Assembly: GCA_024761205.1 (NCBI GenBank)
Contig: JAMASS010000034.1
Span: forward strand, 1 to 48,564
Source: Limisphaerales bacterium
GTDB lineage: Bacteria > Verrucomicrobiota > Verrucomicrobiia > Limisphaerales > AAA164-E04
Length of the DNA: 48,564 nucleotides
Direction: 5' to 3'
Position numbers and translations under genes: made by a program. Below the pieces are notes generated by a model that was not told the origin of the DNA, searched no databases, and saw only the letters and a program-made list of their open reading frames with translations. Below are positions 241 through 30,918 of this stretch, in pieces (positions within the stretch are counted from its first letter, which is position 1; the number at the start of each line of letters is the position of its first letter).

Positions 241-315
241 GTCTTCATTGCCTTTCGGCATTTAGTTCATTCACGACACGGAGCAAGAACTAGCCTATAG
301 GCTAGCAGGCGAACA

Positions 316-511
316 GTCTTCATTGCCTTTCGGCGTTTAGTTCATTCACGACCACCATGAACATCGTAGACGAGTTGTGGTTGAGAAGGATGGAAGTCTT
401 CATTGCCTTTCGGCGTTTAGTTCATTCACGACGGGATTGGAGTAGGGAAACATTGGTCAACTTAATTGAAGACTGTCTTCATTGCCTTTCGGCGTTTAGT
501 TCATTCACGAC
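316..511 (-). repeat. Variant repeats 2-4 at the trailer end of the array
   Basis: The repeats starting at 316, 396 and 475 carry CGGCGTTTAG instead of the CGGCATTTAG found almost everywhere else, including the first repeat at 241. A block of repeats sharing one substitution is typical of the leader-distal end. It supports placing the leader on the right. Confidence 0.85.
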
Positions 512-3500
512 CGGCCGCTCCGGTCGCCTGCCAGGTGAGCCGGGTCTCCTGGGTGTCTTCATTGCCTTTCGGCATTTAGTTCATTCACGACAAAAGGCTC
601 GCAACGAAGCTCGCATTGCGGCGGCTGCGGGTCTTCATTGCCTTTCGGCATTTAGTTCATTCACGACCTTCATCTCTATCGCGAGAAGCTGGCTTTGCTG
701 GGAGTTAGTCTTCATTGCCTTTCGGCATTTAGTTCATTCACGACAATCCCTAGCCATTATGAATACTGCATTGCTAGAGACGCAAGTCTTCATTGCCTTT
801 CGGCATTTAGTTCATTCACGACCAGATCAGGCGTTGAAGACCCCCCGGACCGAGGAACTACCCGTCTTCATTGCCTTTCGGCATTTAGTTCATTCACGAC
901 GGCCGGCTTATGAGTCGGTCGATACCCCGGAACACTTCCGGGTCTTCATTGCCTTTCGGCATTTAGTTCATTCACGACCCTCTATAAGCTAGAGGATGAA
1001 GTTCATTTTGCGCGCTGCGGTCTTCATTGCCTTTCGGCATTTAGTTCATTCACGACCAAGCCAGAAGGCCATATGGCCTGCGCCGAGACCTTGGCCGGTC
1101 TTCATTGCCTTTCGGCATTTAGTTCATTCACGACAGGCTAACTAACCTTTTGGAAATCAGAATTGGAAAGGAGCGCGTCTTCATTGCCTTTCGGCATTTA
1201 GTTCATTCACGACTAATAGCATCAACGCAAGCGAGTTGGTGCTTAAGGAATCGAAGGTCTTCATTGCCTTTCGGCATTTAGTTCATTCACGACTCCCAGC
1301 TATAGTGAATACTGCATTGCTAGAGATGCAAGTCTTCATTGCCTTTCGGCATTTAGTTCATTCACGACCGCGTTCAGTCATCTTATAGCTTCGGATATAG
1401 AAAATCCTAGTCTTCATTGCCTTTCGGCATTTAGTTCATTCACGACGGAATCTCTTCGGCTTGGCTTGGCAAGAAGAGTTTCGTCTTCATTGCCTTTCGG
1501 CATTTAGTTCATTCACGACCCCAGGTTCGAGTTGCGCAATTAGCGGCAGTTTTGGATAGTCTTCATTGCCTTTCGGCATTTAGTTCATTCACGACCCTCT
1601 CCTACTGCGAGCGGATTGACGCCGCTCGCTATGTGGGTCTTCATTGCCTTTCGGCATTTAGTTCATTCACGACGCTCTGCCCGGCCTAGGATATTCGCGG
1701 CGAGATGAAGTCTCGGTCTTCATTGCCTTTCGGCATTTAGTTCATTCACGACCCTGCGGGTCGGACGGCGAACAATCTCGCTGTTCGATGACCGGTCTTC
1801 ATTGCCTTTCGGCATTTAGTTCATTCACGACGCGGAAATGGATGCAATTGAAGCGGAAATTTTAGAGATCGGAGTCTTCATTGCCTTTCGGCATTTAGTT
1901 CATTCACGACCCCGGATTGCAGTATCCGGGCCCTCGGCCATCTTTTGGCCGAGTCTTCATTGCCTTTCGGCATTTAGTTCATTCACGACGCCTGCGCCGA
2001 GACGTTGGCCGCGTTGAATGCGGCCAATGAGTCTTCATTGCCTTTCGGCATTTAGTTCATTCACGACTCGGAGTTGGCAAAAAACCAATTATGGGCAATG
2101 GAGCCTTTGGTCTTCATTGCCTTTCGGCATTTAGTTCATTCACGACGAAGACTTCGGATATTATATCCGATATAAGGCAATGCGTCTTCATTGCCTTTCG
2201 GCATTTAGTTCATTCACGACTCGTACCAGCCTTCCCATAAAGAGTACGAAGCATGCTGGTCGTCTTCATTGCCTTTCGGCATTTAGTTCATTCACGACTC
2301 AATGCTATATTGAAGAGCTAGAGGAAGAGCTAGAAGTCTTCATTGCCTTTCGGCATTTAGTTCATTCACGACTGAGGGTATGGTCGAATGGACCAGCAAG
2401 AGGCTAGAGAGCCTGTCTTCATTGCCTTTCGGCATTTAGTTCATTCACGACCATAGAGAGGATTTTTATAACTATCTAGGATATAATAGTTAGTCTTCAT
2501 TGCCTTTCGGCATTTAGTTCATTCACGACATCTATGGAAGAATCTATAGAGGCTCTAGAAGAAGGTGTCTTCATTGCCTTTCGGCATTTAGTTCATTCAC
2601 GACTCTTAGTAAGAAAATCGAACTTATGAAAGTTCGATTTCTTAGTCTTCATTGCCTTTCGGCATTTAGTTCATTCACGACCAGAACGCAATTAAAGATA
2701 TTGCATTCTATGCTAGCATTAAGTCTTCATTGCCTTTCGGCATTTAGTTCATTCACGACTGCTAGGGCTAGATTCGATGTATTGGGCGTTGAGATTAGCT
2801 AGTCTTCATTGCCTTTCGGCATTTAGTTCATTCACGACGATAAATAATGCATCCCTATCAGAAAAGGAAAGAAAGAGGGTCTTCATTGCCTTTCGGCATT
2901 TAGTTCATTCACGACTCGCGCTCTATGCCATGCTATAGCTAGGGATATAGGGCTTCCGTCTTCATTGCCTTTCGGCATTTAGTTCATTCACGACTGAATG
3001 ACAACATTCACTGTTCTTTGAAAATTGAGTAATGGGTCTTCATTGCCTTTCGGCATTTAGTTCATTCACGACTCACTGAAAGATCTCCGCCGCGTTGAGC
3101 GGCGGTTAGATCGTGCCGTCTTCATTGCCTTTCGGCATTTAGTTCATTCACGACTGCGTTTCTGGGAATCACGGATTTTCTTCCGGCAGCGGGTCTTCAT
3201 TGCCTTTCGGCATTTAGTTCATTCACGACACGTGAACCGGCTTTCAGCATATAAGAAAGCCGGTTGCATAGTCTTCATTGCCTTTCGGCATTTAGTTCAT
3301 TCACGACAACCGAGCTAGAAAAGTTAACGCATAGACTTAACGTCTTCATTGCCTTTCGGCATTTAGTTCATTCACGACTAATTCGATGGGTTCTAAGGGT
3401 TACAGTCTCGAAGATTTGGAGGTCTTCATTGCCTTTCGGCATTTAGTTCATTCACGACTCAAACATCAGATTAAACTATACCGTCCTAAGCACGAGTCTT

Positions 3501-6500
3501 CATTGCCTTTCGGCATTTAGTTCATTCACGACAAAAGCTAGAGCTTTTTAAGACTTGCTTGCTTCTTATCAGGTGTCTTCATTGCCTTTCGGCATTTAGT
3601 TCATTCACGACATCGATATCCGAATCCGTTGGTTCGCCCGGGAATGGCGCTCGTCTTCATTGCCTTTCGGCATTTAGTTCATTCACGACCCCCAACCGAA
3701 TCGGTGGGCTTCCGTTGCGGAAGCCCATGTCTTCATTGCCTTTCGGCATTTAGTTCATTCACGACATGAAAAAACTTGATGAAAAAATTGCGCATGCTGC
3801 AAAGCAGGTCTTCATTGCCTTTCGGCATTTAGTTCATTCACGACCTCCGGAGATGGGCAATCCATCTCCGAAATCATGGGTCGCGTCTTCATTGCCTTTC
3901 GGCATTTAGTTCATTCACGACCCTCACTGGCCCGGAATCGGGTTGCCATCATCGGAAAAACTGAAGTCTTCATTGCCTTTCGGCATTTAGTTCATTCACG
4001 ACTTCAAACAGTCCTAGTGAAAAGGTCGAGAATCCGCGCCTATGGTCTTCATTGCCTTTCGGCATTTAGTTCATTCACGACACGAAAGGTAGGATATGGA
4101 TTTTGTAAAGAAAATCCGAAGTCTTCATTGCCTTTCGGCATTTAGTTCATTCACGACGGGAAGAGGGTGCTCCCCTTGCTGAATCTCCGATGGTCTTCAT
4201 TGCCTTTCGGCATTTAGTTCATTCACGACGAGCAGCAGAAAGAGTTAGAGCTTATTCGGGAAGAGGGTGCTGTCTTCATTGCCTTTCGGCATTTAGTTCA
4301 TTCACGACCTTCTCTCGTCGGGGCGCTAGCGTGGAAACTCTCCGTCTTCATTGCCTTTCGGCATTTAGTTCATTCACGACATGGAAACGCTACCGATGCA
4401 CCTTCGGGTGACGGCGACTCGCCGGTCTTCATTGCCTTTCGGCATTTAGTTCATTCACGACCTGAACGGGTCGTCCATAATAATGGAATACTGGTCATTC
4501 AGTCTTCATTGCCTTTCGGCATTTAGTTCATTCACGACCTATTCCTGATTTCACACACGTTCGCGAGCTGACTAAAGAGGTCTTCATTGCCTTTCGGCAT
4601 TTAGTTCATTCACGACGGCGCGGGGCGCTGTTCAGCTGACCACTGGTGTTGTGGTTTGTCTTCATTGCCTTTCGGCATTTAGTTCATTCACGACATGGAG
4701 TGGACAAGCTCCCCTTCGTCGCGGTAAGCGAGGTCTTCATTGCCTTTCGGCATTTAGTTCATTCACGACCGTCTAAGAGAAGACATAGCGGCCATAAAAG
4801 CATCAGGTCTTCATTGCCTTTCGGCATTTAGTTCATTCACGACGTTCTGGAGACGGAACTAAGCGAACTGACAGGGGTCTTCATTGCCTTTCGGCATTTA
4901 GTTCATTCACGACATGACTGGGAGCTTTATAGCTCCAAGCCGGAAGGCCATATGGGTCTTCATTGCCTTTCGGCATTTAGTTCATTCACGACCCTCTACT
5001 TATTCGGATGATCTTGCGGAGATTTATTGGGATGTCTTCATTGCCTTTCGGCATTTAGTTCATTCACGACGGGTGGATTCTCCTGCCTTCCCAATCTGGG
5101 CGCTGCGCGCGTCTTCATTGCCTTTCGGCATTTAGTTCATTCACGACAGAAATGTGGCACTTGGCACGGTTGTAGCTACTCTATTAGTCTTCATTGCCTT
5201 TCGGCATTTAGTTCATTCACGACGCCAAGATCATGGATCGCGAGATCCATGAAGAGGTCTTCATTGCCTTTCGGCATTTAGTTCATTCACGACCTTTGAC
5301 GGCCGGTTCCAGTATTATGCTCGGTGGACCGGGGTCTTCATTGCCTTTCGGCATTTAGTTCATTCACGACCCCTCGGGGAGGTGTCGGAGGCCGGCGTTT
5401 ATCAGCCGGCCGTCTTCATTGCCTTTCGGCATTTAGTTCATTCACGACAGTCACGGGTAAGAATGGGGTTATTGTTGTCTATGACGAGTCTTCATTGCCT
5501 TTCGGCATTTAGTTCATTCACGACTGAATATATCAAATCATCACCTTATCTTTCAACCCCTAGCGTCTTCATTGCCTTTCGGCATTTAGTTCATTCACGA
5601 CACGACAAAGAATCTCTTCGGCTTGGCTTGGAAAGGCGCAAGCAGTGTCTTCATTGCCTTTCGGCATTTAGTTCATTCACGACGAAGAAGGCAAGATTTG
5701 GAAGGCGCAACAGGATATTGAGTCTTCATTGCCTTTCGGCATTTAGTTCATTCACGACTATCAATAGGCACTCATGCATGCCTTATAGCATAGAAAGTCT
5801 TCATTGCCTTTCGGCATTTAGTTCATTCACGACGCAGTTGCTCGTGCCATTGCTGGCATTTTTGCCAGCGTCTTCATTGCCTTTCGGCATTTAGTTCATT
5901 CACGACAGAAGGCGCGACTCCAGATAAGGTTGCGCTAGCAGCAGAAGTCTTCATTGCCTTTCGGCATTTAGTTCATTCACGACTAGATGCGGATAAAGCA
6001 GCTCTCCTCAGCGGAGGAGTCTTCATTGCCTTTCGGCATTTAGTTCATTCACGACAAGAAGAAGGCAGGTAATCAACCCGTGATATAGCCTTATAGAGGT
6101 CTTCATTGCCTTTCGGCATTTAGTTCATTCACGACCCGCCCGGGACTGGGCAATCGATCTCGATCCCGAGGTCGAAACGTCTTCATTGCCTTTCGGCATT
6201 TAGTTCATTCACGACTTATCGCTCGCCCAAAAAGGCGAGCTGGTATTATGCGCGTCTTCATTGCCTTTCGGCATTTAGTTCATTCACGACCTTTCGCGAT
6301 ATAAGAAAGCCGGTTGCATCTCAAGAAGAGAATGTCTTCATTGCCTTTCGGCATTTAGTTCATTCACGACTCTCATGGACGAAGGAAGCGTCCATTTGAG
6401 GGCTCAGGCGTCTTCATTGCCTTTCGGCATTTAGTTCATTCACGACGCTAAGCCTTCGCCAGAAACTGCTGGAGAACTAATAATGTCTTCATTGCCTTTC

Positions 6501-7470
6501 GGCATTTAGTTCATTCACGACATGCCGTTTTCTGAGGAGGAGGTGTCATCATGAGCCGGCGTCTTCATTGCCTTTCGGCATTTAGTTCATTCACGACCTG
6601 ACTGGAGGACGCTTGTCCTTGCAACTGTTGTAGAGTCTTCATTGCCTTTCGGCATTTAGTTCATTCACGACGTCGCCTTTCCTGGCATCTCCGGTCAATT
6701 CCGGGCGGTCGTCTTCATTGCCTTTCGGCATTTAGTTCATTCACGACGTCGCCTTTCCTGGCATCTCCGGTCAATTCCGGGCGGTCGTCTTCATTGCCTT
6801 TCGGCATTTAGTTCATTCACGACTAGCGAAATGGTAGCCTATAAACACAAAGACTGCGGTTGCGTCTTCATTGCCTTTCGGCATTTAGTTCATTCACGAC
6901 CAGGGCTACCCTCATGGGGCGAGTACTGCATTGCTAGAGATGGTCTTCATTGCCTTTCGGCATTTAGTTCATTCACGACTAGAAGATGGAAGGAAGAAGG
7001 TAGGTAGTTAACTCGTGATAGTCTTCATTGCCTTTCGGCATTTAGTTCATTCACGACTAGCATTTGCATATAAGAGAAGGTTTTCTAATTCCATATAGTC
7101 TTCATTGCCTTTCGGCATTTAGTTCATTCACGACTTGACCTATGAGCTGGCCTCTGATGTCGGCCGCGGGTCTTCATTGCCTTTCGGCATTTAGTTCATT
7201 CACGACTTGCGAGAGAGAGGTAGCGCCCGGCACGTCGCTGACGGTCTTCATTGCCTTTCGGCATTTAGTTCATTCACGACGAGCGACGGTGTTGACCACC
7301 TTCCCCTGGAAGCCGTCCAGGGGGTCTTCATTGCCTTTCGGCATTTAGTTCATTCACGACGCTCCCATGACTCCTACCCTACCTGGGCCGCCATGGGTCT
7401 TCATTGCCTTTCGGCATTTAGTTCATTCACGACAATTTGTAGATCATGTCAAGTCTACTAGAAGCAACAT

Positions 7471-7584
7471 GTCTTCATTGCCTTTCGGCATTTAGTTCAT
7501 TCACAACCGTCCAGTTCTGGATCTCGGGTTCTCTTCCTGAGCGCGGCATCTTCATTGCCTTTCGGCATTTAGTTCATTCACGAC
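7471..7584 (-). repeat. Two adjacent mutated repeats inside the array
   Basis: The repeat at 7471 ends TCACAAC rather than TCACGAC. The next one at 7548 begins ATCTTC rather than GTCTTC, which on the minus strand changes the last base of the repeat and hence of the crRNA 5' tag. A third isolated variant, ending CACGAT, is the repeat at 11100-11136. Confidence 0.8.
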
Positions 7585-10500
7585 GGTTCGGCCGGCACGA
7601 GACCTACCAGATCTTGGAGGCCGGTGTCTTCATTGCCTTTCGGCATTTAGTTCATTCACGACCGGGGGGGGCGCCCTTCTTCCCTGGCCGTAACGGTCGG
7701 TGAGTCTTCATTGCCTTTCGGCATTTAGTTCATTCACGACCACCTGGGACTCCTTCTCAGTTGCTCCCTGGCAAGGCTTGGTCTTCATTGCCTTTCGGCA
7801 TTTAGTTCATTCACGACAAGAACTAATGCGATCCGACCTTTGCCGGGAAGAGCAATTAGGTCTTCATTGCCTTTCGGCATTTAGTTCATTCACGACACCC
7901 CTGCGGGTTGCGTCGCTTCCTTCAGCTCCGCAAAGTCTTCATTGCCTTTCGGCATTTAGTTCATTCACGACGGCCGCCGATTGGAGGACTTCGGTCCTCG
8001 CCACCGTTGGTCTTCATTGCCTTTCGGCATTTAGTTCATTCACGACCGACCTTGATGTCGACCCGGCTATCTGCGGCCGGTTCCGCTGGGGTGTCTTCAT
8101 TGCCTTTCGGCATTTAGTTCATTCACGACCGGCGCAAACTTTTGGAGAACTAAATGCGGAGGGGCAATGAGTCTTCATTGCCTTTCGGCATTTAGTTCAT
8201 TCACGACAAGCCCTCTTCTTCGACCTCGGCAGCCATGTCTGCCTAGGTGTCTTCATTGCCTTTCGGCATTTAGTTCATTCACGACGTTTTCGCGATCTCA
8301 AAGCGTCGACGAGAGGCAGAACTTCGTCTTCATTGCCTTTCGGCATTTAGTTCATTCACGACACCGCGGCCTCGGTCGTCGTGGTCCGGCCGTCCAGTTT
8401 TGGGGTCTTCATTGCCTTTCGGCATTTAGTTCATTCACGACAAGGTGTGTGTGCCACATTGACCCACTGTGACAGGGCGGTCTTCATTGCCTTTCGGCAT
8501 TTAGTTCATTCACGACCGTTCCCTTTATGAAGTTTGATGAGGAGGAGGCGGGTCTTCATTGCCTTTCGGCATTTAGTTCATTCACGACGTGAGGAGACCG
8601 CTTATCTCACCCTCAATGGTGGTCATGTCTTCATTGCCTTTCGGCATTTAGTTCATTCACGACCTCACGACAAGATTGCTTCAAGGGAACGGCAAACACG
8701 CAACTGTCTTCATTGCCTTTCGGCATTTAGTTCATTCACGACTGTTCGGGGCGCCGTGGAGTTGATGTCTGGCGTCGTGTCTTCATTGCCTTTCGGCATT
8801 TAGTTCATTCACGACGGTTTTAGCCTATCTCAAGGCTATAGATAGCGACCTTGATGTCTTCATTGCCTTTCGGCATTTAGTTCATTCACGACAACCAAAG
8901 GCATTCATCGCAATGTATGGCGACAAGCTATATCGCCGTCTTCATTGCCTTTCGGCATTTAGTTCATTCACGACATGATTGTTGGGATTCTAGGGATTTG
9001 GCAATCATTGAATTTAGTCTTCATTGCCTTTCGGCATTTAGTTCATTCACGACCTTGGCTTAGAGAAGCGCAAATCTCTTCGCCAAGAGATTAAGTCTTC
9101 ATTGCCTTTCGGCATTTAGTTCATTCACGACCCCCGCAAGGTAGGGGTGGGGATTGTTCTGTTCGCTCCATAGTCTTCATTGCCTTTCGGCATTTAGTTC
9201 ATTCACGACACCCTGGGCTACCTAGCTATAAAGAATATATTGCGTCAAGGGTCTTCATTGCCTTTCGGCATTTAGTTCATTCACGACACCCTGGGCTACC
9301 TAGCTATAAAGAATATATTGCGTCAAGGGTCTTCATTGCCTTTCGGCATTTAGTTCATTCACGACCATAGCCCAAGCACATCAAACGCGCTTAGAACGCA
9401 AATTTGAGTCTTCATTGCCTTTCGGCATTTAGTTCATTCACGACAAGGGCAACTGGCAATGAGGCTCTCTTGGAGCAATGTTGAGGGTCTTCATTGCCTT
9501 TCGGCATTTAGTTCATTCACGACGCTAACTGTAATCTCATTGTTGCAAATGAAGAGCTTGGTCTTCATTGCCTTTCGGCATTTAGTTCATTCACGACCCA
9601 ATCCACAAGGTAAACGTTAAGACTGCAAAGGTTAGTCTTCATTGCCTTTCGGCATTTAGTTCATTCACGACCTAACTGTAATCTCATTGTTGCAAATGAA
9701 GAGCTTGGTCTTCATTGCCTTTCGGCATTTAGTTCATTCACGACAGCGAAAGGCAAATCCTATATTTGCGATTCATGGGATAGCAGGTCTTCATTGCCTT
9801 TCGGCATTTAGTTCATTCACGACTTGACCTACGAGTTGGCTTCGGATGTCGGTGTCGGGGTCTTCATTGCCTTTCGGCATTTAGTTCATTCACGACTCCC
9901 GCATCTGTGAGGAGACCTGGTATCTGACTCATGGGGTCTTCATTGCCTTTCGGCATTTAGTTCATTCACGACACGACTTCCCGCAAGGCAGGGGGGGGGA
10001 TTGTTCCACTCGCTCGTCTTCATTGCCTTTCGGCATTTAGTTCATTCACGACCAAAGGGATTAGCGAGAAAGCACGTGCTATCGGCGGGCTAGTCTTCAT
10101 TGCCTTTCGGCATTTAGTTCATTCACGACAGAACTTCCTAGGGAAGCATGCATGTTTCCCTTATGAGTCTTCATTGCCTTTCGGCATTTAGTTCATTCAC
10201 GACTTGGTTGGGCGGTCTCCTCATTCGAGGAGTGGTCGGATGGTCTTCATTGCCTTTCGGCATTTAGTTCATTCACGACGGCTACCCGTGGCTAGGCCTC
10301 CTGCTCCTCCTTCCGAGGTGTCTTCATTGCCTTTCGGCATTTAGTTCATTCACGACGACTGAAAGAATCAAATGGCCCCCCTCTGAGGGGGTCGAGTCTT
10401 CATTGCCTTTCGGCATTTAGTTCATTCACGACTCGCTCCTGGAGCGACCGGGCTTTCTTGTCCTGGTCTGACCGTCTTCATTGCCTTTCGGCATTTAGTT

Positions 10501-13500
10501 CATTCACGACCTAACTGCTCAATTCGCGCCTTGTGTCATGCTATAGCCAAGTCTTCATTGCCTTTCGGCATTTAGTTCATTCACGACCCTAAACTAAGAA
10601 AGGCGATTGATGAAAGTTGATTTTAGTCTTCATTGCCTTTCGGCATTTAGTTCATTCACGACTCGCCTTATATGCTTATTCTTCTTCTGGATGCTAGATG
10701 AATACTAGTCTTCATTGCCTTTCGGCATTTAGTTCATTCACGACTCAAGGCCATAGATAGCGGCCTTGATGAAACTAAAGGCATCCGTCTTCATTGCCTT
10801 TCGGCATTTAGTTCATTCACGACTGAACTATTGTCCCAACGAGGTTGCACCCGGCACGTCGCGTCTTCATTGCCTTTCGGCATTTAGTTCATTCACGACC
10901 AGTTCACGGAGTCTCGGGGCAGTTCCGGGCGCCGCGCGTCCGTCTTCATTGCCTTTCGGCATTTAGTTCATTCACGACTTAAGTCCTCCTCCTCTGCGGT
11001 GTCCCCCCTTCCGGGGGGGGTCTTCATTGCCTTTCGGCATTTAGTTCATTCACGACCGCTGTTCGGGGCGCCGTGGAGTTGGCCTCCGGCGTCGTCGTCG
11101 TCTTCATTGCCTTTCGGCATTTAGTTCATTCACGATCCGCGCATAACGGTTCCTTCCCGGCAAGAGTCTTCATTGCCTTTCGGCATTTAGTTCATTCACG
11201 ACCCCCCCTCGGAGGGGGTCAACAGCCCGGAGTTGTTCCGGGCGTCTTCATTGCCTTTCGGCATTTAGTTCATTCACGACTGTCCACGCCGCCCTCGTCC
11301 GTGTCCGCCCCGGCGCCGGGGTCTTCATTGCCTTTCGGCATTTAGTTCATTCACGACAACGGCAAGGGGGTGCCGTTCATGAAGTTTGAGGAGGAGGCCT
11401 GTCTTCATTGCCTTTCGGCATTTAGTTCATTCACGACCCTGGTGAATTTCACCAGGCTTTGTTTCTGGGACTCGTCGTCTTCATTGCCTTTCGGCATTTA
11501 GTTCATTCACGACGCGGTCTCCTCCTTTGAGGAGTGGGAGGATTCCGAGGTCGGGGTCTTCATTGCCTTTCGGCATTTAGTTCATTCACGACCCCAAGAA
11601 GGCGAGCTGGTATTATGCGCCGGAACAAAACCGGGTCTTCATTGCCTTTCGGCATTTAGTTCATTCACGACGATGATCGGGACTCAAGATCATCCGAGGT
11701 CTCCCGATAGTCTTCATTGCCTTTCGGCATTTAGTTCATTCACGACGGAGCGCTCCCAAATTAGGGCCCTCGTTGCGCGAGGGCCGTCTTCATTGCCTTT
11801 CGGCATTTAGTTCATTCACGACATGAAGTTTTTGAATCTCGAATTTACGACGGCGACAGTGCGTCTTCATTGCCTTTCGGCATTTAGTTCATTCACGACC
11901 AGCCCTTACGAGCCTTTCGGTTCGTTGGGGGGGGGCGCGTCTTCATTGCCTTTCGGCATTTAGTTCATTCACGACTGGTCCGGCGCAAACGATGTGTCCG
12001 GAATGTTGGACTGAGTCTTCATTGCCTTTCGGCATTTAGTTCATTCACGACGTACGTTCGGGTCTCGCCGTCCCAGGCACTCGCCTGGTGTCTTCATTGC
12101 CTTTCGGCATTTAGTTCATTCACGACAGGTTTCGACCTCCTCCCCAACTGCTACGATTCCGTGGGTCTTCATTGCCTTTCGGCATTTAGTTCATTCACGA
12201 CTCCAATGCTGCAAGAATATATCGCTGACAACCTATATGTCTTCATTGCCTTTCGGCATTTAGTTCATTCACGACTAGCGCACTAGAAGGCGATTGCGCT
12301 ATTAGGGCTATCGCGCAGTCTTCATTGCCTTTCGGCATTTAGTTCATTCACGACTCGCTCCATATGCCATCTATATGCCAATTTTCATTGGCAAGTCTTC
12401 ATTGCCTTTCGGCATTTAGTTCATTCACGACTCTATGAATGGGCATGTAGCCTGTATCGCCAAAGGCTATAAGGTCTTCATTGCCTTTCGGCATTTAGTT
12501 CATTCACGACCCTGCTGCACATGAAAAACTGCCCACATGATACCTGGCATGTCTTCATTGCCTTTCGGCATTTAGTTCATTCACGACTTCGCGCTTTGAC
12601 ACACGCTATAGCTAGGGATATTGGCATCCGTCTTCATTGCCTTTCGGCATTTAGTTCATTCACGACCGACTGTAGGTCTCTCTGTTAGAGTTAGGTCTGC
12701 ATTGTGTCTTCATTGCCTTTCGGCATTTAGTTCATTCACGACTAGGCGGTGCCGCTCCTTTCTCCCTCAACGTGCTGCTTGTCTTCATTGCCTTTCGGCA
12801 TTTAGTTCATTCACGACGGGAATGCCTAGCTTCTTGGCTTTCTCCAAGAGGTCCATAGTCTTCATTGCCTTTCGGCATTTAGTTCATTCACGACATGAAT
12901 TTCGGAAGCGCTAGACCCACCAGGCATCGCGTCTTCATTGCCTTTCGGCATTTAGTTCATTCACGACCGGCCTATTGCACTCAGCGATTTAAGTCGTTCG
13001 ACTACGCCGTCTTCATTGCCTTTCGGCATTTAGTTCATTCACGACCTACTCAAAATCAGGCAAGAGGTCGACTCACGCCTTGACCGGTCTTCATTGCCTT
13101 TCGGCATTTAGTTCATTCACGACGCGCGTATCGGCGCGCGGGTGTCCGCCCGATGGCGTTTGGGTCTTCATTGCCTTTCGGCATTTAGTTCATTCACGAC
13201 CGTTGGGAGCATGGCGGCGCTGCCCAAACAATGTGTCCGGAATGTCTTCATTGCCTTTCGGCATTTAGTTCATTCACGACCTCGCCACTTGTGGTAGATT
13301 AGTAGAGTCAAGGGCGCGATATGTCTTCATTGCCTTTCGGCATTTAGTTCATTCACGACGCTTTTGCCGGCGCCGACGCCGCCTACCAATGGGCGGGTGT
13401 CTTCATTGCCTTTCGGCATTTAGTTCATTCACGACGAGGAAGGCAAAAATGACTAGCTTTGAAAAAGAAAGGTTGGTCTTCATTGCCTTTCGGCATTTAG

Positions 13501-16500
13501 TTCATTCACGACCGACCTTTTTCGACCTAGGCAGCCATGTCTGCCTAGGTCGGGTCTTCATTGCCTTTCGGCATTTAGTTCATTCACGACACGACGACTT
13601 CGAGAAAAACGTCTTCCGGGCTAAGCAAGCTCGTCTTCATTGCCTTTCGGCATTTAGTTCATTCACGACGACATATCGTTTGGAAAGCCGGGATGAATGG
13701 GAGCGGATGGTCTTCATTGCCTTTCGGCATTTAGTTCATTCACGACCGACAAGGAAGAAGCCAACAGATTGATTCTGTTGGCCGCGTCTTCATTGCCTTT
13801 CGGCATTTAGTTCATTCACGACCTTTCGGTTCGTTGGGGGGGGGCGCATAATGGAGCGCTCCGTCTTCATTGCCTTTCGGCATTTAGTTCATTCACGACC
13901 ATTGGAAGAGAAGGCATTGGCAAAGGCTAAGGGAATCTTAGGTCTTCATTGCCTTTCGGCATTTAGTTCATTCACGACATGGAAGAAGCATTCGCAAGGT
14001 ATAAGAGCTTTTGCGAAGTCTTCATTGCCTTTCGGCATTTAGTTCATTCACGACAAGAACAAACTAAGAAAGGCAATATATGAAGGTTGAATAGTCTTCA
14101 TTGCCTTTCGGCATTTAGTTCATTCACGACCTTTCTATAATTTTCTTGAAGGCTTTAATTTGGCTGATCAGTCTTCATTGCCTTTCGGCATTTAGTTCAT
14201 TCACGACCCCCGCGGGCTTATACACTAGCCTTGCACAACGAGATTGCAAGGGTCTTCATTGCCTTTCGGCATTTAGTTCATTCACGACAAGACTGCGGAT
14301 GCGTTCAGAACGATTGCGTTATCCGCGTCTTCATTGCCTTTCGGCATTTAGTTCATTCACGACTAGCCACATTAAACGCGCTTAGAGCGCAAATTTGGTC
14401 TTCATTGCCTTTCGGCATTTAGTTCATTCACGACTTAGATCGCGCGGGCATTGATGCGCCCGATTCGCTCCCGAAGTCTTCATTGCCTTTCGGCATTTAG
14501 TTCATTCACGACGCCGCCTGCGGAACCGAAGACCGCGACGACGACTTCGAGAAGGTCTTCATTGCCTTTCGGCATTTAGTTCATTCACGACACAAATCAA
14601 ATGTCCGAAGTGCGACGGTTGGATATCCTTTGTCTTCATTGCCTTTCGGCATTTAGTTCATTCACGACCTAGCAGACAAGGTTGAGTCATCTAAGCGGAT
14701 GACTCAACTGGTCTTCATTGCCTTTCGGCATTTAGTTCATTCACGACATTATTCATTTCGGCTCATCAAAAAACTTGCCGCCTAGTCTTCATTGCCTTTC
14801 GGCATTTAGTTCATTCACGACTGCTTTCTGGGAAAGCATCAACGGAACAGAGCTGATGCTTAAAGTCTTCATTGCCTTTCGGCATTTAGTTCATTCACGA
14901 CAGATGCGATGCAGAACTATATCGGCGAAGCCTACGATATAGAGTCTTCATTGCCTTTCGGCATTTAGTTCATTCACGACTCCCTACTATCCCAGCAATC
15001 ATAAAGGCTGTAGCCTTTATGTCTTCATTGCCTTTCGGCATTTAGTTCATTCACGACAAGATAATGAGAGCGAAGGCAATGAAGGCTTATCAGGTCTTCA
15101 TTGCCTTTCGGCATTTAGTTCATTCACGACGACCGGGCGCTTTATGCGTCAAATCGAAGATATGCAATTAGTCTTCATTGCCTTTCGGCATTTAGTTCAT
15201 TCACGACGAGGGTTGCAAATCCTCAAGGAATCTCTGCTGCTTGCCTGTCTTCATTGCCTTTCGGCATTTAGTTCATTCACGACCTCTTCACTTCCCTCTG
15301 CGCGGGGTTCAGGGGTTCACAACCCGTCTTCATTGCCTTTCGGCATTTAGTTCATTCACGACAGGCTTAATCTTCGGCGAAAACTGTTGGAGAACTAAAT
15401 GGTCTTCATTGCCTTTCGGCATTTAGTTCATTCACGACATGACCGGGATTCCCGATCATCGAAAGTCGGCCGCTATTGGGTCTTCATTGCCTTTCGGCAT
15501 TTAGTTCATTCACGACATTCCGAGAAGCGCGGGGAAGCACGGGATCACTGGAAGGGTCTTCATTGCCTTTCGGCATTTAGTTCATTCACGACTCGCCGCA
15601 TTGAGCGGCGATTGGATCGCGCGGGCGTTGTCTTCATTGCCTTTCGGCATTTAGTTCATTCACGACTGGGAGGCTTTCAAGGCCGCTGATGGCGGACTTG
15701 GTGTCTTCATTGCCTTTCGGCATTTAGTTCATTCACGACACGCAACGAAAATCAAATGGCCCCCCTCGGAGGGGGTCGACGTCTTCATTGCCTTTCGGCA
15801 TTTAGTTCATTCACGACGAAAGGCCTCCTCATGAGCTGCTCAAATGAGGTCGCCCCGGGGTCTTCATTGCCTTTCGGCATTTAGTTCATTCACGACTCCT
15901 TTGGTACGACCAGGCTCAACTCGTGGATGCTCCGTCTTCATTGCCTTTCGGCATTTAGTTCATTCACGACATCGATTTCAAGAGCGCCACGCGCTATACA
16001 GTGGCCCACGTCTTCATTGCCTTTCGGCATTTAGTTCATTCACGACGACCAGAGCGCCGGGAACTACAACGGCCGGCCCTCCGTCCGTCTTCATTGCCTT
16101 TCGGCATTTAGTTCATTCACGACAGGACGAGGTGTCTGATGACTAGTCCTCAGTTGTTCGCGTCGGTCTTCATTGCCTTTCGGCATTTAGTTCATTCACG
16201 ACTTCGGTTGAGTTGGCCTCTGGCGTTGTGATCTACGCGCCCCGTGTCTTCATTGCCTTTCGGCATTTAGTTCATTCACGACCGACCGGTCCGGTGCGGG
16301 CGATGACCGTATCGGGGCGGTCGTGTCTTCATTGCCTTTCGGCATTTAGTTCATTCACGACGGACGGCTATTACGCCGTCTTCGTCCGGATCCGGTCCGG
16401 TGGTCTTCATTGCCTTTCGGCATTTAGTTCATTCACGACAATGGAATAAATGCCAGCGAATTGGTTCTTAAGGAGTCCAAGGTCTTCATTGCCTTTCGGC

Positions 16501-19500
16501 ATTTAGTTCATTCACGACTTGGTCTCCCGGGGAACTCGCATTCGTCCGGGTCCGCTTTCAGGTCTTCATTGCCTTTCGGCATTTAGTTCATTCACGACTG
16601 AAAACGAAAATCAAATGGCCCTCTTCTGAGGGCGTCGGTCTTCATTGCCTTTCGGCATTTAGTTCATTCACGACGCCCCCCCTCACGACACAAAGTCTAT
16701 GAAAACGAAAATCAAGTCTTCATTGCCTTTCGGCATTTAGTTCATTCACGACCATTGAAAGAGAAGAAAACAAGATTTGGAAAGCCCAACAGGAGTCTTC
16801 ATTGCCTTTCGGCATTTAGTTCATTCACGACTTGCGGGCCTGGAGGCCTAAACGATTGTGTCATCCGCGCGGTCTTCATTGCCTTTCGGCATTTAGTTCA
16901 TTCACGACCTTATAGCCTCTATGGACGGCCATATAGCCTGCATCGCAAAAGTCTTCATTGCCTTTCGGCATTTAGTTCATTCACGACTGCGAGGAGACCT
17001 GGTACTTGACCCATGGGAGTCTTCGCGTCTTCATTGCCTTTCGGCATTTAGTTCATTCACGACTTGAACGGACAGACCGCGGCTCGGCCGTTGGCCTACG
17101 TGGAGTCTTCATTGCCTTTCGGCATTTAGTTCATTCACGACGATCTGCCCAAACAATGTGTCCTGAATGCTGGGTCCGGGTCTTCATTGCCTTTCGGCAT
17201 TTAGTTCATTCACGACCTACGATTCCGTGGCAGTGGTCGGCCTCTCGGGGCAGTTTCGTCTTCATTGCCTTTCGGCATTTAGTTCATTCACGACGTGACT
17301 GGAGGACGCTCGTCCTCGCCACTATCGTCGAGGAGTCTTCATTGCCTTTCGGCATTTAGTTCATTCACGACGACTACGGCGGTCCGGCGCAAACAATGTG
17401 TCCGGAGTGTTGGGGTCTTCATTGCCTTTCGGCATTTAGTTCATTCACGACCGCCGTCGATAGCGTCCACGGGTCGGCGCACTTCGCGCTGGCGTCTTCA
17501 TTGCCTTTCGGCATTTAGTTCATTCACGACGCCATCTGCGGCCGGTTCCGCTTTCTTCGGGGGGTGGAGTCTTCATTGCCTTTCGGCATTTAGTTCATTC
17601 ACGACGTTTCCCACACGGTCGATTCGCGCATCTGTGAAGAGTCTTCATTGCCTTTCGGCATTTAGTTCATTCACGACCGAGAAACTCAAGCCCCCGCGAT
17701 GCTTTCGCGGCGGCGTTTTGGGTCTTCATTGCCTTTCGGCATTTAGTTCATTCACGACGCTCCCGCGCCACGGGTGCTAGCCGTCCGGCGCTCCTGGGGT
17801 CTTCATTGCCTTTCGGCATTTAGTTCATTCACGACCGTCTCTCGGTTGGACTAACCCTGGCACTCCTTCCCAGTTGGTCTTCATTGCCTTTCGGCATTTA
17901 GTTCATTCACGACGACGATGATGAGTAAGCGTTCTTCTTCTGCGGTGTCCGTCTTCATTGCCTTTCGGCATTTAGTTCATTCACGACGAAACTCAACGCC
18001 GAGGGAGGCGTTTGAGGCGGCATTTGTCTTCATTGCCTTTCGGCATTTAGTTCATTCACGACTGGAAGGCCGGAGTTCCAAACATGCCGTACAGTGAGAG
18101 GCCGGTCTTCATTGCCTTTCGGCATTTAGTTCATTCACGACCCCTGCAGGCAATCGTGGGAGGGTTCGACCTCCTGCCGAATTGGTCTTCATTGCCTTTC
18201 GGCATTTAGTTCATTCACGACGTACCTGATGCCTGGAAATCAATCTATAGCGCAAGCGAGTCTTCATTGCCTTTCGGCATTTAGTTCATTCACGACTCAG
18301 AAAGCAAGTGGAGATCCTTCAAAGAAAGATCTGCGTCTTCATTGCCTTTCGGCATTTAGTTCATTCACGACTTGAGGAAATTCGAGAGAAACTTGAAACT
18401 GCTTTGGAGTCTTCATTGCCTTTCGGCATTTAGTTCATTCACGACAGGCGTCCGATGTCTGATCCGGTGTTCTCTACTCGGGTCTTCATTGCCTTTCGGC
18501 ATTTAGTTCATTCACGACCCAGCTTCATCGTGAACTGGAACAATGGAATGCAGGTCTTCATTGCCTTTCGGCATTTAGTTCATTCACGACGTAATGAAAC
18601 ACACGACATTACTTAGAAAGGAGAGTCTTCATTGCCTTTCGGCATTTAGTTCATTCACGACGATCGGTTTATTCAATTACGTTGTGATCTTACATCACTT
18701 GAGTCTTCATTGCCTTTCGGCATTTAGTTCATTCACGACCAGCTTTGCATTGCAGAGTGTTTGGATCGACTAGACGATGGTCTTCATTGCCTTTCGGCAT
18801 TTAGTTCATTCACGACGAAAACATTTTCAACAAGCGCGAGAGTGTTTTTCAGAAGGGTCTTCATTGCCTTTCGGCATTTAGTTCATTCACGACTGAAACT
18901 ATCCTGAGCATGATATAAAACTGCTTACCCTTTTAGTCTTCATTGCCTTTCGGCATTTAGTTCATTCACGACAAGAAGCGGAATGCCGCATATGATCGCT
19001 GGAAGTCGGCAGTCTTCATTGCCTTTCGGCATTTAGTTCATTCACGACAGACCTTCTTGAACTGTTTAGGACGTGCTATTCCCCCGGGTCTTCATTGCCT
19101 TTCGGCATTTAGTTCATTCACGACCGGCGTTCGTGGTTCGGCAAGGCTGTGACTTATCAAGGCAGTCTTCATTGCCTTTCGGCATTTAGTTCATTCACGA
19201 CGAAGCTCGCATTAAGGAGGCTTCGCTACAGCGCTATAGAGTCTTCATTGCCTTTCGGCATTTAGTTCATTCACGACTTGAACATCTAGCTAACACTTAC
19301 AGCATTGATAGCGAGTCTTCATTGCCTTTCGGCATTTAGTTCATTCACGACGAGCCTTTATGATGAGGCTCATGCTGCCGAAGAACGCGGCGAGTCTTCA
19401 TTGCCTTTCGGCATTTAGTTCATTCACGACCGTTGCTCGCCGGGAGGCAGAGCAGCGCTGGCTGCTCTTGGGGGGTCTTCATTGCCTTTCGGCATTTAGT

Positions 19501-20650
19501 TCATTCACGACCACGTCTCTGACGTGTGACGGGTTATCGTACGAGCTGGGTGTCTTCATTGCCTTTCGGCATTTAGTTCATTCACGACACGGCCTTGCTT
19601 CTCCTCTCTCTCATTCCCAACGAAATCAAGTCTTCATTGCCTTTCGGCATTTAGTTCATTCACGACAGAAAGGAGAAAGTTATGAGCGATAAGACTGATT
19701 ACGTGGTCTTCATTGCCTTTCGGCATTTAGTTCATTCACGACCGCCGTTCAGTTCTGGGTCTCCGGCTCGGTGCCGGAAGTCTTCATTGCCTTTCGGCAT
19801 TTAGTTCATTCACGACGCATGAAACCTACCAGGCTATTGCGCTTGGTTGGTCTGGGTCTTCATTGCCTTTCGGCATTTAGTTCATTCACGACCTACGAGA
19901 GTATTCATGATCGGTTCATTCAGTTGAGATGCGAGTCTTCATTGCCTTTCGGCATTTAGTTCATTCACGACCTTCGGTGAAAATACTCCATTACCCATGT
20001 ATAAGGGTATAACGTCTTCATTGCCTTTCGGCATTTAGTTCATTCACGACCTTGGCCCAGATTCGTGAGTTGTTGGATGAGTTTGAGTCTTCATTGCCTT
20101 TCGGCATTTAGTTCATTCACGACACGGCGGTTCGGCTCGGGCGATGTGCCCTGAGTGCTGGGGTCTTCATTGCCTTTCGGCATTTAGTTCATTCACGACA
20201 TTGGTAGAGTCAAAGGCGCGATGTCTCCCCGCTTGAGGGGGTCTTCATTGCCTTTCGGCATTTAGTTCATTCACGACGGCAATACTTGGAGGCCACCCAT
20301 GGCTAGGCCCCCTGCGTCTTCATTGCCTTTCGGCATTTAGTTCATTCACGACTGAAGTGAATGGTCCGAGTGAAGCATTGAGCTTTTGTCTTCATTGCCT
20401 TTCGGCATTTAGTTCATTCACGACGTACGGGGAGCGTTGGGATACGCTTCGTACTGGAGGTGTCTTCATTGCCTTTCGGCATTTAGTTCATTCACGACCG
20501 TCCCGTTGGGACGCGTTGAACGGGCAAACGGACGCTCGGGTCTTCATTGCCTTTCGGCATTTAGTTCATTCACGACCGCTTCCAGGACTTGGCGGACGCT
20601 CGGGAGGACGAGGGTCTTCATTGCCTTTCGGCATTTAGTTCATTCACGAC

Positions 20651-20857
20651 TGCGGGTATATAAGTCTTTGATGGGCAAGGATGCAAGGCACAATTAGGTA
20701 ATGACGCCGTAAAACCATCGTTCGCAACCGAGTGTCAAGGCTGCGGTTAGCGCTCAAAAACGTCATATGTGTCTTGCTTCCAGCAACTTCCGTCATAGGT
20801 CACGAAGTGGCAATATTCGACGTTGGGATCTCGTTACCTGTTATCCGTCAATGGGGT
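20651..20857 (-). promoter_or_regulatory. CRISPR leader region
   Basis: This 207-nt gene-free stretch separates the last repeat from the end of cas2. It is the expected place for the leader that drives array transcription and marks the integration site for new spacers. Read on the minus strand, the sequence next to the first repeat is AT-rich (CTTATATACC). No further repeat copy or gene is visible. Assignment as leader is inferred from repeat polarity, cas1-cas2 proximity and the decayed repeats at the opposite end. Confidence 0.7.
20709..20738 (-). promoter_or_regulatory. Possible array promoter in the leader
   Basis: On the minus strand a perfect TTGACA lies at 20738-20733, and 18 nt further is TTTTAC at 20714-20709, a poor match to TATAAT. 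It would start a transcript about 50 nt before the first repeat. The -35 element is clear and the -10 element is weak. Confidence 0.3.
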
Positions 20858-21133
20858 TCAAACTAAATAGCAGACGACTTTTTCTGAACAAACCATGGCT
20901 CCGGCGGTCAGTGTTTGTCGGGCGTTTTTCGCATCCAGTTTGTAGGCGACAAGCCGGTCTTCCGCTTCGTCGATTTCGTCAAGCAATCGCCCCCAAAATT
21001 CCTGGAATTGGTCGTCTTTGAGGTGGCATTCGAAAACACTATATTGTACCCGAAAGCCGTAATCCTCGCAGACCCGAGCAACACGAGCCAAGCGTCGGGG
21101 TTTGGTTACGTCATATGCAATCAGGATGAGCAT
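20858..21133 (-). CDS. cas2: CRISPR adaptation endonuclease Cas2
   Basis: This 91-residue protein starts MLILIAYDVTKPRRL, the usual Cas2 beta-strand with the conserved aspartate (D8). It continues into the ferredoxin-like fold, including the YSVFECHL segment. Cas2 forms the structural core of the Cas1-Cas2 integrase that inserts spacers at the leader end. The open frame extends upstream to an ATG at 21235, just after the cas1 stop. The extra 34 residues are unlike any Cas2 N-terminus, so I chose the internal ATG at 21133, although its ribosome site is weak. That choice leaves a 106-nt gap behind cas1. It is the last gene before the leader. Confidence 0.93.
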   Translation of the reverse strand: MLILIAYDVTKPRRLARVARVCEDYGFRVQYSVFECHLKDDQFQEFWGRLLDEIDEAEDRLVAYKLDAKNARQTLTAGAMVCSEKVVCYLV

Positions 21134-21239
21134 TTGTTTTTGGCCCGGTGGCGATTTTTTGTATCCTGTCTTGGGGAAAGCCTCTTCCCACCAAGTGCCC
21201 AAGGGAATGGAGCTGCCGGTGTCAGGATGAGGCATGGTT

Positions 21240-22286
21240 TCAATTCATCCGGAATGGTTTCAAGGTTTCCGGGGTGTCCAGAGCTCCCTTGTATTGCACG
21301 GCCTCGTTTTCTATTTGTTGTCTGAGTGTTGTCCGATGGCCGACGTGTTCGCTTAAAAACTGACGCTCCAAACGACGTTCGTATTGCAGCAGGAATTTCT
21401 TGCGGCCCGCGTCGTTCAAATACACACCGCCTTCCCGGTGTTCGAAATGTTCCTTGGGGTTCAATATGGATCGGCTGAACAGGTCAAGGGTCAGGGATTC
21501 TCCCACAGCCGGCCGAAAGGGTTCGATCAAATCCAGGGCGAGGGACCAGCGCCGGTTTTCGGTAGTGTGCAATGCGCCGAGAGAAGGGTCCAGACCATGG
21601 CTGTGAAGAAACGTCACCGCTTCATGATAGAGTAATGTCGAGGCGAACGAAATGCAGGCGTTGACGGCATTGAGCGGTGGCCGTGTCGAGCGCCGCCCAA
21701 AGATGGCTCCTTCAGGCAAAAATGTTGACCAGGCCCTGAAGTATCGTGCAGTGGACGCTCCTTCCAATCCTCTGACTTCATCGATGGATCGGACGGCTTC
21801 GACTGTCTTGAGATAGCCGCCGAGATCGTCGGCTGTCTCTCGGGCTGTCACATTTTCCATTTCGTCGGAATTCTTGTCACGGTGCTGGCGTCGAGCAGCG
21901 TCCAGGCGTTGAAGCACTCGCCGTTGGTTGTATATTTTGGCAGTCACCCACTGACGGGCTACCTCCAAGGTGAATTCTGAATCAAGAGTCCGACGATACT
22001 GATTGAGGCGAAAGCTTCCCTGGGCCGGGGTTGCCGGCAGGAACCCGCCCAGAAAGCGGTCGTTCCAGCCGAGGACGGATATCGGAATATCTTCCCTGAG
22101 CATCCGGGCCAATGCGCGGGATGTCATCTGGGCGTCCTCGCTGATGATGAGCCGGTCGAGATCGTGAAGGGGGATGGATCGCAGCACTTCCTGTTTGCCG
22201 GTTTCCGGATTCGCCCGGGATACTTCCAGGTGCCGGGATTTCAAGTGCACGCAGGCGTTTTGTTGCAGGATGCAGGCAGTTGCCAT
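21240..22286 (-). CDS. cas1: CRISPR integrase Cas1
   Basis: This 348-residue Cas1 is the metal-dependent integrase that joins protospacer ends to the leader-proximal repeat. The expected catalytic residues are visible: E175 in RGLEGASTARYF, H240 in GALHTT, and E255 in LALDLIEPFRP. The length is normal for a stand-alone Cas1. There is no reverse-transcriptase or Cas6 fusion, so spacer acquisition directly from RNA is not suggested. An AGGAGG-like ribosome site (GGAGGAG) sits about 11 nt before the ATG, inside the 3' end of the upstream CARF gene, whose stop lies 8 nt away. Confidence 0.97.
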   Translation of the reverse strand: MATACILQQNACVHLKSRHLEVSRANPETGKQEVLRSIPLHDLDRLIISEDAQMTSRALARMLREDIPISVLGWNDRFLGGFLPATPAQGSFRLNQYRRTLDSEFTLEVARQWVTAKIYNQRRVLQRLDAARRQHRDKNSDEMENVTARETADDLGGYLKTVEAVRSIDEVRGLEGASTARYFRAWSTFLPEGAIFGRRSTRPPLNAVNACISFASTLLYHEAVTFLHSHGLDPSLGALHTTENRRWSLALDLIEPFRPAVGESLTLDLFSRSILNPKEHFEHREGGVYLNDAGRKKFLLQYERRLERQFLSEHVGHRTTLRQQIENEAVQYKGALDTPETLKPFRMN

Positions 22287-22294
22287 GTATATTG

Positions 22295-23473
22295 TTACTC
22301 CTCCCTGCTGGAACGGATTTCGATCAGCGCCGGTTCGACATCCAGTGAAAATCTCCCCTTTTCAGGAAGACAACCAGCGAGTAGCGCGGCCTCGCCAGCC
22401 AACGCTTGGACCTTCCGACGCAAGGTTGAAACCGCTAGCATCATGTCATGTGACGTAAGCGATTGTCTGAGTTGTTCGAAGTTCCTCCAATTCGGCGGCG
22501 GAGAGAAGGATTCGCCCGCCAGAAGATCCTCCCGGAATTTGTTGACCGAATCCGCCCAATCATCCGCCATGTCCGGTTCTCGTGCTTTGGCGCGTTTTGC
22601 CAAAAAAAGCATCAGCAAGTGCTCAAGGGGTGAAAGCTTCAATCGCTGCCCGTTGACCTCGATTTCCGGGCGTCTCCCTTCGATGATCAAACGGACGTTT
22701 TCGCCGGTCTGATGCCGCAGCCCCAAGCGGCATCGTTCGACTAAATGCGAAAAGCTGCCCGAGTCCGGGCCAAGTTCTCTCCACAGGAGGTTTCGCAGGG
22801 TCACAAAGGGCACCTCGGCCAAATCGATTGCTGCGTCCCGCGGGTTGACAGAGTTACCTGAAGGGTCGACAAGTGGCCCGCCCGGCTGTTCCGGGAAATA
22901 GAAGTCGGCGAGGCGTTCGTACGGTTCGCCGACCAACACGTGGGTCAGCATATCCTGCTCGCGTGCGGATAGCGTCATGCAGGCGTAAAGGAGTGCTCCC
23001 ATCGTTTTTCTTCCCCCGGCGAGGCTGGCCACTAGACGAATGTCGGGATTTGCGGTGACGGATCGAACCTGGGACAGGAGGTAGTTCGCCGCCGTGACGT
23101 TGTCGTCTGGAACCCGTATATCTTCCAGTTCTGTGCTGAGTCCGCTCGCAGGGTCGAGTCCGATAATCGTTCGAATATCTTCGCTTGTGTTCCCAAACCT
23201 GAGTTTGCCCGCTACGTTTGTTCCTTTCGCCGCCAACGCCTCACGCAAAGTTTCCCAGGGCGTCCGCCCATTGAACCGCGCGAGAGGTTTCAGAAGGCAT
23301 CCGATCAATTTCCGCCGTCCGACGGTGGTGGTCACCGTCACCACTCGGTCAGGAACGATAGGTTCCGGGCGGAGGCAAAGCGCCCAGACCGTCTCTGTCA
23401 GAACGGCTGGCGAGGCGCCGATCACTGCCAGAAGCACCGTTTGTTGGGCTGGCAAATCATCAAAAATATCCAT
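22295..23473 (-). CDS. CARF-domain protein, NE0113/Csx14-like, with winged-helix-like C-terminus
   Basis: This 392-residue protein has an N-terminal Rossmann-like CARF domain. VLLAVIGASPAVLTETVWAL (about 13-32) is the first strand and loop, and LVASLAGGRKTMGALLYA (about 147-164) carries the ligand-loop motif GGRKT at 153-157. FYFPEQ follows near 191. This arrangement recalls the NE0113 family, some members of which are annotated as ring nucleases. Residues about 270-385 read EVNGQRLKLSPLEHLLMLFL and later VSTLRRKVQAL, resembling OmpR-type winged-helix domains. It may therefore be a cyclic-oligoadenylate sensor that binds DNA, a ring nuclease, or both. A 155-nt gap (23474-23628) separates it from card1; it is the largest intergenic gap in the operon. 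No enzymatic residues can be assigned with confidence. Confidence 0.72.
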   Translation of the reverse strand: MDIFDDLPAQQTVLLAVIGASPAVLTETVWALCLRPEPIVPDRVVTVTTTVGRRKLIGCLLKPLARFNGRTPWETLREALAAKGTNVAGKLRFGNTSEDIRTIIGLDPASGLSTELEDIRVPDDNVTAANYLLSQVRSVTANPDIRLVASLAGGRKTMGALLYACMTLSAREQDMLTHVLVGEPYERLADFYFPEQPGGPLVDPSGNSVNPRDAAIDLAEVPFVTLRNLLWRELGPDSGSFSHLVERCRLGLRHQTGENVRLIIEGRRPEIEVNGQRLKLSPLEHLLMLFLAKRAKAREPDMADDWADSVNKFREDLLAGESFSPPPNWRNFEQLRQSLTSHDMMLAVSTLRRKVQALAGEAALLAGCLPEKGRFSLDVEPALIEIRSSREE

Positions 23474-30887: not shown

Positions 30888-30918
30888 AAGCTGACGATAA
30901 ACGAGATTCGTTCTAATT

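Follow-up and report, generated by a model that had tools for sequence, protein, structure and literature searches.

Which strand of their targets do the guides of a long type III CRISPR array face, and how would such a preference arise where the adaptation genes carry no reverse transcriptase (RT)? Both questions are raised by the window analysed here, a whole contig of 48,564 bases from a draft genome (4.94 Mb, 95% complete) of what is probably a verrucomicrobium, since the closest relatives of its Cad1 protein are mostly verrucomicrobial. The cas operon, given below in its own order, and the array that adjoins it consist of the following elements:

32346..35234, minus strand: cas10/cmr2 with a GGDD motif, read in frame as YAGGDDVLAMV (PADLOC Cas10, E 1e-86)
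30919..32349, minus strand: cmr3 (PADLOC Cmr3, E 2e-41)
29916..30983, minus strand: RAMP protein gene, cmr4 by position, with the subtype taken from gene order (PF03787, E 3e-20)
29563..29964, minus strand: cmr5 (PF09701, E 1.5e-17)
28209..29546, minus strand: cmr6 (PADLOC Cmr6, E 7e-29)
27319..28212, minus strand: cmr1 (PADLOC Cmr1, E 1e-20)
25379..27328, minus strand: Cad1-like CARF-adenosine deaminase (PF00962 and PF09623; PADLOC CARF_ADA, E 3e-152)
24762..25382, minus strand: small gene, 206 aa
23629..24816, minus strand: CARF-PD(D/E)XK nuclease, Card1-like (PF23400; PADLOC CARF4--CARF_PDDEXK)
22295..23473, minus strand: CARF5-family effector, Cas_NE0113 / Csx1-like (PF09623; PADLOC CARF5, E 3e-63)
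21240..22286, minus strand: cas1, 348 aa, without a reverse-transcriptase domain (PF01867, E 1e-75)
20858..21235, minus strand: cas2 (PF09827, E 5e-21; PADLOC Cas2)
20651..20857, minus strand: putative leader region, assigned by position, 207 nt between cas2 and the array, 52% A+T
241..20650, minus strand: CRISPR array of 266 repeats of 37 nt (minus strand GTCGTGAATGAACTAAATGCCGAAAGGCAATGAAGAC) and 265 spacers, mostly of 36-43 nt, predicted to be read right to left

Judged from its genes, this is an RT-free type III-B locus, in which the Cmr genes are accompanied by cas1, cas2 and three CARF effectors. In particular, PADLOC and Pfam together find Cas10, Cmr1, Cmr3, Cmr5, Cmr6 and a RAMP protein at the Cmr4 position, and the signalling features of such systems are represented by the cyclase GGDD motif in Cas10 and by the three CARF proteins. 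A search of the genome (an assembly 95% complete) for reverse transcriptases (PF00078) gave no match, and none is fused to or adjoins cas1. The 206-aa gene between two of the CARF effectors has no Pfam or PADLOC match; on inspection by eye, a Nudix-box-like stretch (GGH...GLRRELGEEY) can be made out in it. Moreover, the genome yielded no Cas6 of family PF01881, and the crRNAs of the III-B array may be processed by the Cas5-6 fusion of a second, type I-G system described below, or by a Cas6 of another family.

The direction in which the array is read is central to everything that follows, and we take it to be transcribed from right to left, on the minus strand, because of three features. Namely, the operon and cas2 lie on the minus strand at the right end of the array; the repeat, when read on that strand, has the end GGCAATGAAGAC, which is in register with the ATTG(A/G)(A/G)AC-like ends of the type III repeats that stand beside related Cad1 loci; and the three variant repeats (316, 396 and 475) lie near the left, distal end, even though the outermost repeat (241) carries the consensus sequence despite its distal position. 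On this strand, the predicted 5' handle of the crRNA would end ATGAAGAC. The exact sequence of the repeat was absent from 84,980 species genomes scanned, and only 3 of 196 genomes searched, the own genome included, had any match to it. The count of 265 spacers in the first-pass annotation of this DNA was exact, and 263 of them are unique. Two are identical duplications (6672/6748 and 9210/9288) and a further pair is near-identical (9524/9672); such adjacent or nearby copies point to repeat-spacer duplication inside the array.

If spacers were inserted and retained in random orientation, half of the non-identical spacers on the same or homologous targets should lie on the same strand and half on opposite strands. 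What we find instead is that blastn places the III-B spacers of 52 pairs on the same strand and those of a single pair, which includes the palindromic spacer 13513, on opposite strands, and a more sensitive ungapped scan, at a score level at which III-B against shuffled I-G spacers gave zero pairs, yields 67 and 2. With the palindromic pair set aside, the consistency is 67:1. Treating each of 40 families as one unit, the fraction in the minority orientation is 1.1% (95% interval 0.07-4.7%), and about 99% of the testable III-B spacers share one orientation. The single clear exception and its partner are:

14981..15020, minus strand: the spacer in opposite orientation, with the minus frame KGYSLYDCWDSR
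8975..9016, plus strand: spacer encoding DCWDSRDLAIIEF, homologous to the reverse complement of 14981..15020

Here, the reverse complement of the former, which reads KGYSLYDCWDSR, is close to the latter over about 22 positions.

Which of the two strands is the coding one? The plus strand of the spacers is the coding strand of their targets, as can be read from how homologous spacers have diverged. In the 54 non-identical pairs, with 203 mismatches and the best frame chosen on each strand, the mismatches in the plus frame fall 42/28/133 on codon positions 1/2/3, and 118 of the changed codons are synonymous as against 53 nonsynonymous (69% synonymous). On the minus strand, 116 mismatches fall on third positions, with 80 synonymous and 91 nonsynonymous codons (47%), whereas substitutions placed at random are synonymous in 32-34% of codons, whichever strand is read. 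The difference between plus and minus protein scores is 6.5, as compared with 0.1 +- 0.85 for random substitutions. Counted by family, 25 favour plus, 6 favour minus and 8 tie (p = 0.0009). The spacers that illustrate this behavior, together with an apparent gene start, are:

7135..7169, plus strand: spacer encoding LTYELASDVGR, partner of 9824..9859, with differences synonymous on plus
9824..9859, plus strand: spacer encoding LTYELASDVGVG, partner of 7135..7169
11976..12014, plus strand: member of the five-spacer family GG(P/S)A(Q/R)(T/A)MCPECW (members 11976, 13201, 17142, 17372 and 20124), all in one orientation
20278..20315, plus strand: spacer with an apparent gene start, read directly as GGAGG-CCACCC-ATG GCT AGG CCC CCT

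The synonymous third-position divergence in plus frames on which the first-pass annotation had built its case is therefore real and far above chance, and the per-strand synonymous scoring in six frames that it had proposed returns a clear excess of plus families. As for the pairs that it quoted, the first (7135-7169 and 9824-9859) indeed reads LTYELASDVG in both spacers with only synonymous changes, and its aligned core has 4 synonymous and 0 nonsynonymous changes on plus as against 2 and 2 on minus. The second (6598 and 17295) does read DWRTLVLATVV / DWRTLVLATIV on plus, with 4 synonymous changes and 1 nonsynonymous, but fails to discriminate the strands, the minus frame giving 5 and 1. The third (11976 and 17372) has just two differences, synonymous on either strand, and is a tie by itself, while the five-member family to which it belongs favours plus by 15 to 7. 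In other words, the idea that such a pattern reveals the coding strand without knowledge of the phage is borne out over families but seldom by a single pair, one of the three quoted being diagnostic alone.

Spacers without relatives tell the same story. With the family spacers as its training set, a codon model assigns 109 of these 165 to plus and 56 to minus, with a maximum-likelihood plus fraction of 0.80 (0.69-0.90), a value that should be read as a floor and not as an estimate, the model being noisy on 40-nt pieces. In five-fold blocks, 171 spacers are assigned to plus and 92 to minus, with plus as the best estimate in every block. An unsupervised six-frame EM gives weights of 0.91 to plus and 0.001 to minus, and plus wins the best solutions from 30 seeds. 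That said, the same procedure re-orients randomly flipped data only moderately well and puts shuffled data mostly on one strand too, at lower likelihood, and since EM alone behaves in this way, we rely on the held-out codon tests. Counts of stop codons per strand gave no useful signal. Shine-Dalgarno motifs followed by ATG lend weak support, with 19 on plus and 6 on minus as compared with 12.7 +- 3.5 and 6.5 +- 2.4 in shuffles. In the homologue at 10280 of the spacer at 20278, GTG replaces ATG, and spacer 19667 holds another apparent plus-strand gene start (AGAAAGGAGAAAGTTATG). Because plus is the coding strand and the array is read on minus, its guides would be antisense to the transcripts of their targets, a complementarity deduced from spacers and array rather than from the transcripts themselves. 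The earlier claim that the guides are complementary to mRNA, as an RNA-targeting type III system needs, thus holds.

Is this orientation a property of the host, of its invaders or of the III-B system? The genome offers a control of its own, namely a type I-G system on another contig (C67), with Cas7g, Cas5-6g, Cas3g, Cas8g and a Cas4-Cas1 fusion and with an array of 85 repeats and 84 spacers (C67:150519-156631). Its clearest homologous pairs comprise 1 in the same and 5 in opposite orientation, two of the latter five coming from one family that holds both orientations. Compared with the 67:1 of the III-B array, this difference gives p = 2e-6 in Fisher's test, with the pairs partly non-independent and the I-G opposite count small. 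The codon-model plus fraction of the I-G spacers is 0.40-0.52, not different from one half (37 plus to 47 minus). The I-G array of the same genome therefore faces both ways, with no codon-strand preference. What is more, the two arrays share a target:

17452..17493, plus strand: III-B spacer with 27 of 28 nt in common with I-G spacer 29 (C67, about 152651), in opposite orientation

Going by this one spacer, both systems have met a related invader, and this invader has a DNA stage, given that type I-G systems target DNA.

How, then, did the bias arise? The first-pass annotation had left a choice between biased acquisition and later selection, and this disjunction stands. We consider it probable that the antisense bias stems mainly from selection after undirected acquisition, and that the array is a store of III-B spacers against recurrent, related invaders. 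In such a scheme, Cas1-Cas2 without a reverse transcriptase would capture fragments, probably of both strands. The Cmr/Cas10 complex would have to bind RNA before it could cleave it or synthesise the cyclic oligoadenylates by which the CARF effectors are activated, and protection would come only to cells whose new spacer yields an antisense guide, sense-oriented spacers being lost or swept aside. Repeated encounters with related invaders would then be recorded as families of homologous spacers, whose differences reflect the synonymous divergence of the invaders themselves. As in the first-pass annotation, we infer that these invaders were phages, and the scheme presumes an immunity that is active. 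We favour selection because of the lack of a detectable RT, because published type III systems draw their spacers from both strands until selection acts (PMC7515739, PMC5576922), and because hairpin and non-hairpin spacers are biased to the same degree. In particular, the RT-free type III system of Thermus acquires from both strands when unselected, and infection selects antisense spacers (PMC7515739), while in Marinomonas even an RT-Cas1 orients spacers weakly (PMC5576922).

It should still be noted that an array produced by an intrinsic directional mechanism would look no different. Namely, Cas1-Cas2 could take hairpins of the coding strand displaced by transcription and insert them in a fixed orientation before any selection. 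This would agree with a review according to which type III adaptation in S. thermophilus favours single-stranded DNA secondary structures and the coding strand (PMC9048733), and the III-B spacers are indeed rich in hairpins: they fold better than dinucleotide shuffles (mean z -0.69, with 15% below -2), and perfect stems of at least 7 bp occur in 12% of them as compared with 4% of levivirus windows and 0% of T7 windows. Examples of stem-loop spacers are 13513-13553, 2604-2644, 3230-3270 and 1911-1952. If hairpin capture were the source of the bias, however, hairpin spacers should carry more of it, and their plus fraction is 0.86 (0.69-0.98) as against 0.80 (0.69-0.91) for the rest, which is not clearly stronger; fold z and strand score are uncorrelated (r = -0.04), and the bias is similar across array blocks. 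Its independence of hairpin content speaks against hairpin capture as the source, as do the I-G spacers, which are hairpin-rich (z -0.33 +- 0.12) yet unoriented, and the Thermus system, which took spacers from both strands without selection (PMC7515739). For these reasons, we regard fixed-orientation capture as unlikely, and it is likewise unlikely that the RT-free III-B module inserts antisense spacers on its own through single-stranded coding-strand hairpins, such that the array would be functional before selection. Selection, which we hold to be probable, accordingly ranks first and intrinsic orientation second.

Could the folding of the spacers point to invaders of a different kind? RNA-genome phages similar to Leviviricetes would present one genomic sense, highly structured, to which guides antisense to the plus RNA would be directed, and the folding statistics do suggest such targets. 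The spacer mean of -0.69 falls among the values of 13 Leviviricetes genomes (-0.30 to -1.09) and differs from those of T7, phiX174, a Caudoviricetes phage and host genes (host genes, T7 and phiX174 are far off, at -0.05 to -0.11), with M13 intermediate at -0.35. Local RNA structure is, however, unspecific, as hairpin capture predicts it likewise, and the other marks of leviviruses, namely peptide likeness and the absence of a DNA stage, are not seen: plus-frame peptides are no closer than minus-frame ones to 13 levivirus proteomes, blastn against INPHARED (over 1,200 ssRNA phage records) gave nothing, the genome has no detectable RT and a III-B spacer has the 27 of 28 nt in common with a spacer of the DNA-targeting I-G system. 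For the shared invader, RNA phages are already largely refuted, and we rejected them on the I-G match, the lack of an RT and the lack of levivirus-like peptides; as targets in general they are very unlikely. A better fit for the hairpin excess is offered either by the preference for DNA secondary structure that has been reported for RT-free type III adaptation (PMC9048733) or by hairpin-rich DNA invaders, the latter being proposed because the I-G spacers and the 112 spacers of other arrays near Cad1 genes (z -0.32 +- 0.11) are also, more mildly, enriched. In each of the I-G spacer pairs 2/60 and 27/74, one and the same stem-loop recurs on the opposite strand with its loop altered, and from these pairs the hairpins seem to be conserved in the DNA of the invader itself.

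What do the spacers encode? Peptides merged from overlapping spacers read (N)DC(V/S/A)IRA(L/I), GH(I/V)ACIAKG and C(D)SWDSR, and, taken together, these motifs look like the Cys, His and Asp regions of a papain-like cysteine protease. Such a protease is not known from leviviruses, which counts against them as targets. The Cys motif is found in spacers 1911, 2916, 6824, 9132, 9973, 10511, 12276, 12588, 14289 and 16832, the His motif in 12432 and 16909, and the Asp motif in 8975, 9745 and 14981. That some 15 spacers fall on motifs like the catalytic regions of one such protease gene suggests an invader gene that was sampled repeatedly. Profile searches with the merged single peptides gave only weak PHROGs/Pfam matches, not significant, and when two of the merged peptides were compared with 320 genomes of the order, none matched convincingly. 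The best protein matches, Vibrio phage VP4B and Dulem virus 35, are weak, and the latter was rejected, its annotated frame leaving no room upstream for the Cys motif. At the nucleotide level, no protospacers were found in INPHARED, in PLSDB (searched with two of three array pieces) or with IMG/VR patterns.

Finally, it is scarcely credible that the shared orientation is an artefact of spacers duplicated inside the array and then drifting, whose copies necessarily keep one orientation, as might be thought from the two identical duplications and the near-identical pair, since most pairs are offset by up to about 20 nt with different flanking target sequence and must be separate captures, since synonymous divergence needs selection on a protein, which spacers escape, and since the codon bias holds in spacers without relatives too.

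Type III spacers seldom match known viruses, and their strand bias is therefore usually measured on the minority that does. Diverged spacer families, in turn, give the coding strand from the array alone, which makes the bias measurable in any long array without a virus database. A bias near 99% next to a DNA-targeting control makes it more pressing to ask if spacer orientation in RT-free type III systems is set at capture or by selection only, and the unusual wealth of hairpins among the spacers, which also lends itself to testing, offers another hint at how fragments are taken up.

How does this locus compare with known systems? Compared by operon context only, it resembles the Cad1-carrying type III loci (PMC11645235) in having a CARF-adenosine deaminase effector in a type III operon, here with two further CARF effectors and in a probable verrucomicrobium. 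Like Marinomonas mediterranea (PMC5576922), the genome combines III-B with a DNA-targeting type I system (there I-F); there, however, RT-Cas1 is present and new spacers are weakly oriented, while here there is no RT and orientation is near-complete. In Thermus thermophilus infected with phages phiFa and phiKo (Artamonova et al. 2020, PMC7515739), Cas1-Cas2 is likewise RT-free and antisense spacers dominate, but that was a laboratory experiment with one infection, whereas the present array is a long record, built up in nature, of 265 spacers whose targets recur in diverged forms. The closest parallel in kind is the survey of Vink et al. 2021 (PMC8482600), in which type III spacers are oriented so that crRNAs pair with mRNA, with coding-strand targeting of 65% on average and 88% in the III-B system of Moraxella. 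A coding-strand bias is thus already known, and about 99% of testable spacers, found here without protospacers and with the I-G array as control, is extreme. What is new is its near-completeness in one natural array, the control from the same genome and a demonstration that is free of databases.
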